A DNA stretch of 29,311 nucleotides from a virus. Under the pieces are notes generated by a model. The model had not been told where the DNA came from, made no database searches, and worked only from the letters and a program-made list of their open reading frames with translations. This document shows positions 13,383-28,657 of this stretch, one piece after another. How positions within the stretch are numbered: position 1 is the stretch's first letter; each line of letters begins with the position of its first letter. The DNA lies in the IMG/VR virus record IMGVR_UViG_3300049489_000601, positions 1-29,311 of that record. The stretch is one strand, 5' to 3'. Made by a program: the position numbers and the translations under genes.

Positions 13383-13422
13383 AAACAAAAAAGGCGGCGC
13401 ACAGGAAACCCCATGCGCCGCC
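13383..13422 (-). terminator. Rho-independent terminator after the capsid gene
   Basis: On the minus strand a perfect nine-base stem, GGCGGCGCA (13422-13414) with TGCGCCGCC (13401-13393), encloses a 12-base loop and is followed by TTTTTTGTTTG. It lies in the 92-base gap between the major capsid gene and the small gene at 13354. It could limit transcription of connector and tail genes relative to capsid genes. Confidence 0.9.
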
Positions 13423-20491: not shown

Positions 20492-20709
20492 GGCTTTCCT
20501 TGCAATGGCCGGATTGTTCCGGCGGTTATGTTGCCAGAATTGGCGCCGTAAAACTTGCCATTTGACAACCAAAAAACGAAAACCTCAATGCGCATGATTT
20601 TCACGGTTTCCGGCTTTCCGTTTGGCGCCTTGCGATATTCTACGGCATCGCCAACCTTAAGCGATGCGAGCCAAGCGCGGCGCGCCTCGGCCTTATTGGC
20701 CGGCGGCAT
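20488..20709 (-). CDS. Hypothetical small protein
   Basis: The product has 73 residues. After a helical start it has a beta-rich centre (KVGDAVEYRKAPNGKPETVKIMRIEVFVFWLSNGKFYG) that looks like a small SH3-like or barrel fold; this is a visual guess. It overlaps the HTH gene by 17 bases and is linked by ATGA to the following gene. It shares a transcript with the terminase genes. No function is recognised. Confidence 0.6.
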   Translation of the reverse strand: MPPANKAEARRAWLASLKVGDAVEYRKAPNGKPETVKIMRIEVFVFWLSNGKFYGANSGNITAGTIRPLQGKP

Positions 20710-20893
20710 CGTTCATGAGTTGTTCCAAGGCTTGCAACGCTGCCATGGGCTTGGCGCCAATCGCTCGCGCGCCGCGCGCAATGCAAAAAAAATGCGTATG
20801 CGAAACGCCGAGGCGCTCGGCAAGTTCCGTTTTGGAAATGTGCAAGCGTTTTGCCAGCACAGAAAACTTGCGTTTGTATTTTGGATGCCTCAT
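20693..20893 (-). CDS. Small helix-turn-helix DNA-binding protein
   Basis: The product has 66 residues starting at MRHPKYKRKF. The core HISKTELAERLGVSHTHFFCIARGARAIGAKPMAALQALEQLM reads as a Cro/CI-type helix-turn-helix with the turn at LGVSHTH. It is almost all DNA-binding domain and could be a Cro-like regulator. The ATG forms ATGA with the preceding gene. A -10-like TACAAT ends eight bases before the start codon, so a near-leaderless message is possible. A longer frame to 21049 lies in the other gene and is rejected. Confidence 0.72.
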   Translation of the reverse strand: MRHPKYKRKFSVLAKRLHISKTELAERLGVSHTHFFCIARGARAIGAKPMAALQALEQLMNDAAGQ

Positions 20894-21171
20894 GACGTTG
20901 ATTGTATCACGGTTGCCAATTCGATTGCCACAAACCGCCAAGCGGTTGCGCGCCCCTGTATCAATGTTATTTTCGCGCGAGGGTACATGCGCCGTGCCTC
21001 GGCCAAGGCGCCAAGCGCGCAATTGGCATGTAGCCAACCTTGGAAACAAAAATCATGAGGCGGCGCAACGTTTGGCGCGCTGCGTGGTCTGCCGGCGGCC
21101 GCCTCATGTACTGTACTTTCCATCGGCCAAATTAAAGCGCGCCGGCGGCGCAATGTCCAACCGGCGCGCAT
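20890..21171 (-). CDS. Hypothetical protein
   Basis: The product has 93 residues from the ATG at 21171, four bases after the stop of the membrane protein gene. An earlier ATG at 21240 would overlap that gene by 65 bases. The N-terminal part is Arg/Ala rich. The C-terminal part, FCFQGWLHANCALGALAEARRMYPRAKITLIQGRATAWRFVAIEL, looks like a folded alpha/beta unit. The gene is linked to the HTH gene by ATGA. No family is recognised, and the ribosome binding site is weak. Confidence 0.5.
   Translation of the reverse strand: MRAGWTLRRRRALIWPMESTVHEAAAGRPRSAPNVAPPHDFCFQGWLHANCALGALAEARRMYPRAKITLIQGRATAWRFVAIELATVIQSTS
20901..20930 (-). promoter_or_regulatory. Candidate leftward promoter with shared early motif
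   Basis: On the minus strand TACAAT (20906-20901) is preceded after 18 bases by TGGCAA (20930-20925). The core ATTGTATCACGG on the plus strand is also found at 23366, 25106 and 27441. Here it lies in the 3' end of a coding region, directly before the HTH gene, so it may owe part of its sequence to coding. Confidence 0.5.
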
Positions 21172-23365: not shown

Positions 23366-23394
23366 ATTGTACCACGGCACAATGCGGCGCGCAA
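23366..23394 (-). promoter_or_regulatory. Leftward early promoter with overlapping dyad operator
   Basis: Minus-strand TTGCGC (23394-23389), a 17-base spacer and TACAAT (23371-23366) give a good sigma70-type promoter, 46-52 bases before the winged-helix gene. On the plus strand ATTGTACCACGGCACAAT at 23366-23383 is a near-perfect dyad (ATTGT-x-CC-xx-GG-x-ACAAT) covering the -10 and part of the spacer, as expected for an operator. A near-identical copy is at 27441-27469. Confidence 0.75.
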
Positions 23395-23409: not shown

Positions 23410-24180
23410 CTATTGGCCGCGCTCATATAGTCTAAAATCCGGCTCATTGTCGCTTATTTCCAGATAATCCGAAAGGCCGCGCAACCGGCTCGCCGCGCGT
23501 TTGCCGTATTGCTCAACCATGGTTTCGATTGAAATATTGGCCGAAATATAGATTTTGGCGCCGGTTCCGATCCATTTGGCAAGCGCCTCGCCGATCAAGG
23601 CCGCGCTTTCGCCTTGGCCGTATGCCGCCATGGCCGGCTCGGTTCCCAAATCCTCAATCACGCAAACGGCGTTTTTGTGCAATGAGGCATTGAACCGCTT
23701 GCAACCGGCCGCCATGTCTCGCACCAATTCCGATGCCGTTAGCCAATGAACCGAGCGCGGCGCAACCTCATCGGCAACCAAGCGCGAGGCAATGGCAAAA
23801 TCCTTGCCGCGCCCTGTGCCGGATGCCAAAATTACAATTTGCCGGTTGGCGTGCGCGATTAAATCAAGCGCCTTTGACGCGCGCGGGTTTAATATATCGC
23901 CGCCGGTTGCCTCGGCGCTCAAAAATTCCACATGGCAAATCCTGTCACAAATCGCCAAGGCGCGTTTTTTACGCTCAACCCTGCCAAGGGTACATGCCGA
24001 GCCATAAAAAGGGCAAGGCGCGCCAAATCCGGCCTCGGCATGGCCCTGAAATTTGCCGGTTCCAAAATGGTACTCAAGAAAACGGCCGCCGCATCCGGCC
24101 GGCAATGGGCATGCTTGCAAACTGGAAACAACAACGCGCTCGCGCTCTTTCCAACCGGTCAAAACCGCATTGTTGCTCAT
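23410..24180 (-). CDS. DnaC/IstB-like helicase loader ATPase
   Basis: The 256-residue product should load the host replicative helicase at the phage origin. AAA+ features are visible: a P-loop SGTGRGKDFA (Lys126), Walker B AVCVIEDLG (Glu176, Asp177), a sensor-like YISANIS (Asn215) and an Arg finger region RAASRLRG. Asp127 stands where the P-loop normally has Ser or Thr, which is unusual. The N-terminal 90 residues hold paired cysteines (24/30, 56/63, 78/82) that may bind zinc. ATGA overlap with the initiator gene supports a joint role. Confidence 0.85.
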   Translation of the reverse strand: MSNNAVLTGWKERERVVVSSLQACPLPAGCGGRFLEYHFGTGKFQGHAEAGFGAPCPFYGSACTLGRVERKKRALAICDRICHVEFLSAEATGGDILNPRASKALDLIAHANRQIVILASGTGRGKDFAIASRLVADEVAPRSVHWLTASELVRDMAAGCKRFNASLHKNAVCVIEDLGTEPAMAAYGQGESAALIGEALAKWIGTGAKIYISANISIETMVEQYGKRAASRLRGLSDYLEISDNEPDFRLYERGQ

Positions 24181-24971
24181 TGCGCACCGCCAAATGAATC
24201 AATTGCCGTTTGCTTTCGCTTTCCGGCCGATGCCTTGCCGGCCTTGGTTGTCAGTCTAACCGCATCACGGCGCAACCATGAGGTTATAAAACCGGCCATG
24301 GCGCTTGGCGCCTTGCGCTTTTGCTCGTTATCCTTGAGCCAATTTTGTATGTCATTGAGGGTTTCGGCCATGTTTATTTGCGGATACCTTGCGGCCAAAT
24401 CAACCACGCTTTGCCGGCTCAAGTCAAACATGCTGCCATCGGCGCACGGAAACAAACCCCATGAATTTTCAACCCCTGCATTGTTCAAAAACAAAATCAC
24501 TTTGCCCCCTTTTGTATTAATATTCTCTTTTCTTATTCTTAAATCTAGGCTAGCATTGCGCTTGCAACCTGCTAGCGTTTCGCCGTTTTGACCTTGTAAC
24601 CCGTTGGAATCCTTGGTTACTATTTCCAGATAACCGCGCGCTATCAGGTCATGCAAATCCGGCTCGGTTTCGGTTCCGATGCGCCGTTGCACATATTTTG
24701 AATTAAGCGGTATTGAATTATTACAACGGCTTGCAAGCAACCAAATCAAAATAACGTGCAATTTGGCGGAATCTGCCAAACACTCAAAATTGAATGAATC
24801 CAACAACCTAGCGTGCAACTTAATCCAGTCCGGCCGGCGCTCGCCGTAATGTTGATATTTGGCCCAATCCTTGACGCCGAAATATTGCAAAGGCTCGGCC
24901 GGTTGGCTTGGTTCCGGCGATGTTGCCGGCCTGCTAGGATCGCGCGGCGGTTGGCTTTCTGGATTTGTCAT
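24177..24971 (-). CDS. Replication initiation protein (lambda O / DnaT-like)
   Basis: The product has 264 residues. After a Pro/Ser-rich tail (1-28) comes a probable winged-helix region: DWIKLHARLLDSFNFECLADSAKLHVILIWLLASRCNN...YVQRRIGTETEPDLHDLIARGYLEIV. The C-terminal part has AETLNDIQNWLKDNEQKRKAPSAMAGFITSWLRRDAVRL, a form seen where initiators contact the helicase loader. Its stop overlaps the loader start (ATGA, 24177-24180), forming an initiator-loader pair. GAGG lies seven bases before the ATG, after a terminator-like structure. Confidence 0.78.
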   Translation of the reverse strand: MTNPESQPPRDPSRPATSPEPSQPAEPLQYFGVKDWAKYQHYGERRPDWIKLHARLLDSFNFECLADSAKLHVILIWLLASRCNNSIPLNSKYVQRRIGTETEPDLHDLIARGYLEIVTKDSNGLQGQNGETLAGCKRNASLDLRIRKENINTKGGKVILFLNNAGVENSWGLFPCADGSMFDLSRQSVVDLAARYPQINMAETLNDIQNWLKDNEQKRKAPSAMAGFITSWLRRDAVRLTTKAGKASAGKRKQTAIDSFGGAQ

Positions 24972-24990
24972 TTTTGCGCCTCGATTGAAT

Positions 24991-25067
24991 AAAAAGGCCG
25001 CATGGGGTTTTGCAGGAAATGATTAACCCGTGCCGTTTTTTTCTATGGCGGCAACTACCCATGCGGC
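24991..25067 (-). terminator. Terminator-like or attenuator structure in the replication leader
   Basis: A perfect ten-base inverted repeat, GCCGCATGGG (minus strand 25067-25058) with CCCATGCGGC (25006-24997), encloses 51 bases and is followed by CTTTTTATT. A smaller GCCG/CGGC stem lies inside. It lies between the promoter at 25106-25134 and the initiator gene, so transcripts must read through it. This suggests attenuation, antitermination or production of a short RNA. Confidence 0.6.
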
Positions 25068-25099
25068 GTCAAACTTGAATTTTCAACAATCATTTTTGC
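24991..25099 (-). ncRNA. Candidate short leader RNA
   Basis: A transcript from the promoter at 25106-25134, starting near 25099 and ending in the T run at 24991-24995, would be about 105-110 bases. It would contain the ten-base outer stem, an inner stem and an A-rich loop, and no open frame of note. No known family is recognised. It may be only an untranslated leader. Confidence 0.35.
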
Positions 25100-25105
25100 G
25101 CAATC

Positions 25106-25134
25106 ATTGTACCACGGTTGTTAATTAGTTGCCA
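25106..25134 (-). promoter_or_regulatory. Leftward promoter for the replication genes
   Basis: Minus-strand TGGCAA (25134-25129), a 17-base spacer and TACAAT (25111-25106) form the element. The plus-strand core ATTGTACCACGG matches the other early promoters, but the ACAAT half of the dyad is absent here. The -35 overlaps the last codons of the 34-residue gene. The leader to the initiator ATG would be about 128 bases. Confidence 0.65.
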
Positions 25135-25229
25135 TACACATTGCGCGCGGCATCATAGGCCAATGCCCCGCCGGAAACAAGCGCCCAAAATAGCGCGGTT
25201 CCGATACGGTTAATGGTTTGAATTGTCAT
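25125..25229 (-). CDS. 34-residue small membrane protein
   Basis: The ATG at 25229 forms ATGA with the stop of the 85-residue gene upstream. The peptide MTIQTINRIGTALFWALVSGGALAYD ends with AARNVYGN. One short hydrophobic segment (about 9-25) suggests a single membrane pass. It closes the recombination gene cluster and its 3' end overlaps the next promoter. The coupling to the upstream gene is the evidence for translation. No function can be given. Confidence 0.5.
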   Translation of the reverse strand: MTIQTINRIGTALFWALVSGGALAYDAARNVYGN

Positions 25230-25483
25230 GGCGCAATTCCATCGGCGGCCGGCGGCGGCAATTGATCCAACAATTTTTGCAAGCCTCGGCCATCCTTGAT
25301 AGTTGCGCCGCTATGCCATCCGGAATAAGGCCAAAATTGTACCGTGCGGCCGGCATGCTCAAACAATAGCGCATTGGTTCCGGCATGTTTTATTTTGTAA
25401 CCTCGGCGCCGTAGCTCGGCAACGGCCGTTTCCATCCGTGCCGGTTCCAACCGCGCTTGCCTTTCGGAATCCAACCGGCTCAT
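25226..25483 (-). CDS. Hypothetical phage protein
   Basis: The 85-residue product has an Arg/Glu-rich helical N-terminus and then a compact beta-type part, METAVAELRRRGYKIKHAGTNALLFEHAGRTVQFWPYSGWHSGATIKDGRGLQKLLDQL. Small proteins with an F-x-P-Y-x-G-W-x-x-G...DGRG pattern occur in phage recombination/replication clusters, with no known function. The ATG forms ATGA with the bet stop, so it is probably coupled to Bet. Confidence 0.72.
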   Translation of the reverse strand: MSRLDSERQARLEPARMETAVAELRRRGYKIKHAGTNALLFEHAGRTVQFWPYSGWHSGATIKDGRGLQKLLDQLPPPAADGIAP

Positions 25484-26322: not shown

Positions 26323-27096
26323 CTATGCCCATGCGGGCAAAAAAAGGTTTTCGATTTTTTCAGAATAAGCCGGCCATGATCCTGTAGCCTTGCACTCGGC
26401 GTACCGCTCGAGCTCATTGCGCCGAGCCTCGCCGCCTTTGGAAACATCGGCATCGGCCAAAACATAGACGCCAACGGCGAAAGGCGGCGTTTTTTCTACT
26501 GCTATAACAATGAACCTTTCGCGCTCAAGCCCTGCCAAATAGTGCGCCGCTTGCACATGATAGCGGTATTTCGCAACCGATTTTGCAAAACCATTTGGGC
26601 TCGCATCCTCGGTTGTTTTCACATCGCAAACAACGTTGGCGAGCCAATCCGGCCGGCATTTGCACGGTTGGCCGGTTACAGGATCAACCCAAAACGCCGA
26701 TAATTCCGGCGCACCGTCAAGGTTGAGCAACGCGCGCGCCGCCGGATGCCGCATGATGCTTTCGCGCATGGCCTTGGTTGCCTCGAGCTCGGCCGCCGAA
26801 ACCGTCAATTTGCCGGCGTTGGCCGCCTCAAATTCCGCAAGCCCTGCCTTGCCGGCGGTTGTGCGGCCATCAAACTTAGGCATGACAACAAAATCACGCG
26901 CGAAAATATCAGGCTCGAGCACCGCGCAATGCACAATGCGGCCGAGGCGCAAAGCCTTGGTTTCCGGCTTGTCATTGTCTAAATAATGCCGCAAATGCGC
27001 CGGCGATTGCTTGAGCTTGTCAAGCCATGATTTGCTCACATGCTCGCGGTTGGCGTGGTATTCCACGGCCGGCACGTTTAAGATTTCGGCGCTCAT
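26323..27096 (-). CDS. PD-(D/E)XK exonuclease (RecE C-terminal / DUF3799 type)
   Basis: This 257-residue nuclease probably digests one strand of double-stranded ends to feed the Bet protein. The fold's motifs are present: LGRIVHCAVLEP (His56), a Glu near 131 in APELSAFW, CKCRPDWL, CDVKTTEDASP with Asp158 and Lys160 as the D-x-K, and a helix YRYHVQAAHYLAGL with Gln182. This matches the catalytic part of RecE and related phage exonucleases. The gene overlaps its upstream neighbour by ATGA (27093-27096). Confidence 0.88.
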   Translation of the reverse strand: MSAEILNVPAVEYHANREHVSKSWLDKLKQSPAHLRHYLDNDKPETKALRLGRIVHCAVLEPDIFARDFVVMPKFDGRTTAGKAGLAEFEAANAGKLTVSAAELEATKAMRESIMRHPAARALLNLDGAPELSAFWVDPVTGQPCKCRPDWLANVVCDVKTTEDASPNGFAKSVAKYRYHVQAAHYLAGLERERFIVIAVEKTPPFAVGVYVLADADVSKGGEARRNELERYAECKATGSWPAYSEKIENLFLPAWA

Positions 27097-27440: not shown

Positions 27441-27469
27441 ATTGTATCACGGCACAATATGGCGCGCAA
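27441..27469 (-). promoter_or_regulatory. Main leftward early promoter with dyad operator
   Basis: Minus-strand TTGCGC (27469-27464), a 17-base spacer and TACAAT (27446-27441) lie 46-51 bases before the first early gene. The plus-strand sequence ATTGTATCACGGCACAAT contains the ATTGT-N8-ACAAT dyad. This element and the one at 23366 agree over about 31 bases with three mismatches, far beyond what -10 and -35 elements require, which points to a shared regulator site. Confidence 0.78.
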
Positions 27470-28633: not shown

Positions 28634-28657
28634 GCCGGCCATTGCGCCGGCTTTTTT
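28634..28657 (+). terminator. Rho-independent terminator of the rightward cassette
   Basis: GCCGGC (28634-28639) pairs with GCCGGC (28646-28651) around a six-base loop and is followed by six T residues. It ends the rightward unit just before the convergent end of the lysis-side operon at 28673. On the minus strand the stem lacks a T run, so it should not stop leftward transcripts efficiently. Confidence 0.85.

Follow-up and report, generated by a model that had tools for sequence, protein, structure and literature searches.

Leaders with premature termination

Premature termination within a leader is an already known type of control. In satellite phage P4 it controls the replication genes, and the P4 immunity RNA is a processed RNA of the antisense type with repeated complementary boxes. 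The GraL/greA region of E. coli consists of a promoter, a premature terminator in the leader and then the gene, giving both short RNAs and a read-through mRNA; its terminator is compact, the products measured 37-59 nt and about two thirds of the transcripts terminate (PMC6829880). In the IsrK / orf45-anrP region of Salmonella prophage Gifsy-1, transcripts start at a promoter, meet a leaky terminator and in part extend into a small ORF and a phage gene; this read-through RNA is acted on in trans by IsrK, which controls an antirepressor (PMC4825925). In attenuation by a leader ORF (uORF), as in mdtU-mdtJI, a short leader ORF lies beside a termination signal, in the case of mdtU acting via Rho (PMC7815308).

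The phage leader described here is a candidate for this type of control, with an ordinary mechanism, and by analogy would most likely work like GraL or like the cis part of IsrK. It shares with GraL the order of promoter, terminator-like hairpin with U tract in the 5' leader, and gene. It differs from GraL in its 51-nt loop, its predicted RNA of ~105-112 nt and a 12-codon ORF over the 5' arm of the hairpin, and no homology is claimed. With IsrK it has in common a phage-borne promoter followed by a candidate leaky-terminator-like hairpin; however, the small ORF is here located upstream of the hairpin and the likeness is confined to the part of IsrK that acts in cis. As in trp-type leaders and mdtU-mdtJI, a short leader ORF adjoins a termination-like signal, but the locus has no Shine-Dalgarno sequence for this ORF, no regulatory codon run and no antiterminator better than chance. 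The likeness to P4 lies in the proposed control of replication genes by premature leader termination; no antisense-type RNA with repeated boxes of the P4 kind was noted at this locus.

Gene layout and relatives

The window analyzed is the whole virus record of 29,311 bases, in which nearly all genes are transcribed leftward. The recombination operon runs from 27395 to 25125 on the minus strand, and its exonuclease and RecT genes are followed by an 85-aa ORF, a 34-aa ORF and then the gap that contains the leader:

Leftward, recombination block: exonuclease (PF12684)
Leftward, recombination block: RecT (PF03837)
25125-25229, minus strand: 34-aa ORF, the last ORF before the gap
24972-25124, minus strand: gap of 153 nt, from the stop of the 34-aa ORF to the ATG of the replication protein (24971)
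24969-24987, minus strand: ribosome-binding region and start codon of the replication gene, GAGGCGCAAAAATG, with GAGG 7 nt before the ATG
24177-24971, minus strand: replication protein of 264 aa, first gene downstream of the leader
23410-24180, minus strand: ATP-binding protein of 256 aa, candidate DnaC-like helicase loader from a weak NCBIfam match and its position

The gap is the second longest intergenic gap in the window, where seven gaps exceed 50 nt. The replication protein matches PHROG 26426 'replication protein' (E 9e-11) and resembles, in sequence and fold, the putative replication protein gp04 of PhiPLPE. A fold search of BFVD retrieved phage proteins, one replication protein among them, and a search of its fold against the PDB gave no match. 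An HNH endonuclease match was present in 3 of the 27 viral relatives sharing the N-terminal domain of this protein, which suggests that the domain may join different partners. The loader candidate, placed after the replication protein, matched an NCBIfam ATP-binding model at 3e-8, far under the cut-off. Past it lie structural genes, including a Mu-type portal.

Relatives were sought in viral contigs, in genome contigs and by blastn and tblastn of phage records. The collections searched contained no close relative: identity reached at most 54 % in RecT and 46 % in the replication protein, no synteny was shared with the distant relatives, and tblastn of the presumed capsid protein against 50,697 phage records gave no match. 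Despite its Mu-type portal and RecT/exonuclease genes, the phage is an orphan. Most of the distant relatives have the replication gene right behind its neighbour, and those with a gap upstream of it had no comparable hairpin with a T run.

The promoter and its family

On the minus strand, the gap reads in the order promoter, ATG of the 12-codon ORF, 5' arm, TAG, 3' arm, CTTTTTATT, GAGG and the ATG at 24971:

25106..25135, minus strand: promoter with extended -10 TGGTACAAT (25106-25114) and weak -35; core CCGTGGTACAAT at 25106-25117
25055..25093, minus strand: candidate 12-codon ORF, from sequence, MIVENSSLTPHG followed by its stop
25058-25067, minus strand: 5' arm of the hairpin, GCCGCATGGG, within the final codons of the ORF
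25031-25053, minus strand: inner stem-loop TGCCG...CGGCA with a loop of 13 nt, nested in the outer hairpin
24997-25006, minus strand: 3' arm, CCCATGCGGC, pairing perfectly over 10 bp with the 5' arm
24988-24996, minus strand: U tract CTTTTTATT, directly after the 3' arm

The -10 element, TACAAT at 25106-25111, has a TG extension (promoter scan 9/12 with TG). Its -35 is either ATGGCA at 18-nt spacing (4/6) or TGGCAA at 17 nt; the scanner rates this -35 as weak, so the extended -10 may be what gives the promoter its activity. Exact matches to CCGTGRTACAAT occur four times on the minus strand of the window and never on the plus strand, with 0.03 expected from shuffles:

20901-20912, 23366-23377, 25106-25117 and 27441-27452, minus strand: copies of CCGTGRTACAAT

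In each case a leftward ORF starts 7-60 nt downstream of the copy. By their sequence and placement, the four copies form a promoter family of the phage, and the 25106 promoter is the best-supported part of the leader. The original prediction had placed a promoter before the hairpin, and this family gives that claim stronger support than was then known. The copies at 27441 and 23366 share a longer block, TTGCGCGCC-N2-ATTGTGCCGTGRTACAAT (TTGCGC, 17 nt, TACAAT), while those at 25106 and 20901 keep its right half only, CAACCGTGRTACAAT, with TGGCAA at 17-18 nt.

The hairpin and coincidence

The gap of exactly 153 nt and the perfect 10-bp arms, with 51 nt between them and a T run after them, were re-found as originally described. 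The outer stem has G-C in 8 of its 10 pairs and encloses two small inner stems. Its T run adjoins the stem in the direction of transcription only, the plus strand there reading GTCAAACTTG. The hairpin folds at -28 kcal/mol with outer-stem pair probabilities of 0.93-1.0, which were the same when upstream read-through RNA was added. No covariance model of Rfam 15 matched anywhere in the window, and 24900-25260 gave no hit even with E allowed up to 5.

When the gap was dinucleotide-shuffled 4000 times, 134 of the shuffles contained a perfect repeat of at least 10 bp. Combined with TTTTT, such a repeat occurred in 0 of 4000 and one of at least 8 bp in 14 of 4000. The 78-nt hairpin folded better than all of 200 shuffles (z -2.8), for a stretch chosen for its folding; the whole gap, unselected, had a z of -1.7 and beat 942 of 1000 shuffles, 58 being as good. 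Repeats of at least 10 bp with a T run were also found in coding DNA, at 26430-26489 (plus strand) and 21054-21108 (minus strand), one of them antisense. With about one such hairpin per strand per 29 kb, ~0.005 are expected in the gap; as there are seven gaps >50 nt, the surprise is only modest (p of the order of 0.02, our own estimate). The hairpin exceeds the expectation from composition for this gap, yet is not extreme.

Pure coincidence, in which a real promoter and leader happen to contain an inverted repeat and a T run, is one of the two simplest rivals to a regulatory leader, the other being a plain structured leader. Consistent with it are the similar hairpins within genes and antisense in the rest of the window, the modest fold score of the whole gap and the lack of conservation in distant relatives. 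The hairpin nevertheless lies directly between a promoter and the gene that it faces, where so few are expected and where the shuffles gave none, and coincidence is considered unlikely.

Comparison with intrinsic terminators

With a GC-rich stem directly before a U tract, the hairpin has the canonical make-up of a terminator. Its geometry is different: the loop of 51 nt and the stem-loop of 71 nt in all lie outside the limits of TransTermHP, which are 3-13 nt for the loop and up to 59 nt in total, and measured loops have a median of 4 nt (PMC12207403). Its d-score is -32, where a canonical terminator would score above zero; terminators elsewhere in the phage score +59 (13393-13422) and +28 (28634-28651). 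The tail term is 2.6 for the U tract of the gap versus 5.1 for the terminator at 13393. The latter is a strong classic terminator on the minus strand (13 bp, loop of 4 nt, TTTTTTGTTT), directly after the presumed capsid gene. Of the terminator-like hairpin originally proposed, its presence and its improbability by chance in this gap thus stand, whereas its geometry is abnormal for an intrinsic terminator and its d-score low. As the loop is in effect made shorter by the inner stems, and as the fold is stable, partial termination is plausible and strong termination less so. At the sequence level, the arrangement is that of an attenuator, with a promoter and then a terminator-like hairpin before the first gene.

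On the best reading, the gap may hold a leader that resembles a premature terminator and works leakily ahead of the replication genes, composed of promoter, hairpin and U tract and possibly tuned by translation of the 12-codon ORF; this reading is quite possible without being probable. The phage-type promoter at 25106 would start leftward transcription ~130 nt before the replication protein. In the leader RNA, the 10-bp GC-rich outer stem would close the two small inner stems, with the short U tract after it, and RNA polymerase would stop at the U tract in a fraction of passes. From a start near 25099, the terminated RNA is predicted to be ~105-112 nt long, in agreement with the 105-110 bases first predicted. 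The remaining polymerases would read through into the genes for the replication protein and the loader candidate. The hairpin would thereby be a weak brake that sets or tunes expression of the replication genes from their own promoter, and the same brake would apply to transcripts arriving from the upstream RecT/exonuclease operon. If polymerase does terminate here, the leader is where this orphan phage sets the dose of its replication proteins, by halting part of the transcripts. Such control would be simple, might be coupled to host translation, and would add a case from phage replication to the leaders of the GraL and IsrK type.

The hairpin might instead be a weak 3' terminator of the recombination operon, placed after the 34-aa ORF, with an overlapping promoter that restarts transcription for the replication genes. 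It starts 58 nt past the stop of that ORF, where terminators are often found. Against this, the hairpin comes after the promoter and would thus block the promoter's own transcripts, and a phage capable of the strong terminator at 13393-13422 has made none such here. This explanation is rather unlikely.

In the second of the simple rivals, the promoter is real and the hairpin is an ordinary structured 5' leader that does not terminate, protecting the 5' end of the mRNA or restraining access to the ribosome-binding site. The poor d-score and the 51-nt loop suit a structural role. Furthermore, in the untranslated leaders of the other two leftward promoters that have one, a hairpin likewise lies between the start site and the ribosome-binding site (-13.0 kcal/mol at P27441 and -12.7 kcal/mol at P23366), and the fold of the full leader mostly pairs the bases in and beside the Shine-Dalgarno sequence. 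Such a leader needs no U tract right after its 3' arm, though, and the combination of arm and TTTTT was absent from the shuffles. A purely structural role is held to be somewhat unlikely.

Alternative folds and the 12-codon ORF

The original prediction also saw a switch in an alternative stem within the loop. The TGCCG/CGGCA stem does exist, but it sits inside the outer hairpin and the two can form together, so that it is no alternative to the hairpin. In the growing RNA, AAATGATT, where the 12-codon ORF begins, first forms pairs with AATCATTT that break up when the 3' arm appears. This transient fold is no more stable than is usual after shuffling (293 of 500 shuffles were equally stable), and blocking the 3' arm costs ~15 kcal/mol (-36.4 to -21.8). 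Folding of the leader gave no mutually exclusive antiterminator fold better than chance. With the outer stem dominant and its one exclusive competitor matched by shuffled sequence, the proposed switch is not supported.

The 12-codon ORF had been overlooked in the original prediction. It starts ~4-8 nt after the predicted transcription start, its last codons are overlapped by the 5' arm, and its TAG stop (25057-25055) abuts that arm. When the ORF region was covered, the fold lost the outer stem (-17.5). In this folding model, keeping the arms apart would plausibly require a ribosome on the 12-codon ORF; translation of the ORF, if it occurs, could open the stem and give more read-through. The ORF was examined for a Shine-Dalgarno sequence and for sensor codons, and has neither a Shine-Dalgarno sequence nor a diagnostic or regulatory codon run; the duplex energy with the anti-SD is -2.8 at the ORF versus -5.9 at the replication gene. 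Its start context, GCAAAAATG, is common to the ORF and five gene starts and has 8 copies in the window, with 3.8 expected:

15975, 23313, 24971 and 27395, minus strand, and 27644, plus strand: gene starts with GCAAAAATG
25093, minus strand: start of the 12-codon ORF with GCAAAAATG

All five gene starts have G-rich, SD-like bases upstream. At 20893 the phage seems to use a leaderless start: the ATG of a gene for a helix-turn-helix protein lies there 7 nt downstream of TACAAT, the -10 also seen in the leader promoter, so that this gene is probably leaderless. A translation-coupled attenuator, in which a nearly leaderless 12-codon ORF over the 5' arm lets the translation state of the host set transcription of the replication operon, is decidedly doubtful.

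The 12-bp direct repeats GCGCAAAAATGA that flank the hairpin raised the idea of an insertion. It was set aside because GCGCAAAAATGA contains the common gene-start context of the phage.

Origin of replication

An origin beside the initiator gene had been proposed from the position of the gap, and its position by the replication gene is the sole point in favour of an origin, or of a protein-binding inverted repeat, at this place. Neither iterons nor DnaA-box-like sites were found in the gap and replication gene; the search for iterons gave only weak two-copy repeats, DnaA-box-like 9-mers were rarer than chance and GC skew showed no change. The T run moreover gives the inverted repeat a direction. 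Both the origin and the binding repeat are regarded as very improbable, and the proposed origin was not retained.

Operator-like repeat and candidate regulator

An 18-bp near-palindrome, ATTGTGCCGTGRTACAAT, covers the -10 of two of the promoters:

23366-23383 and 27441-27458, minus strand: near-palindrome ATTGTGCCGTGRTACAAT
20693-20893, minus strand: 66-aa helix-turn-helix protein, from weak HTH matches

The near-palindrome looks like a repressor operator. The viral contigs scanned contained no match to it, and the copies of the operator-like core in 17 contigs were dismissed as chance matches in unrelated sequence. The 66-aa protein is a candidate regulator that may bind the putative operator. 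The long-loop hairpin at 21054-21108 (minus strand), within or close to a small ORF, is found a short way upstream of the HTH gene and has an 11-bp perfect stem, a 33-nt loop and then ATTTTTG (-29 kcal/mol).
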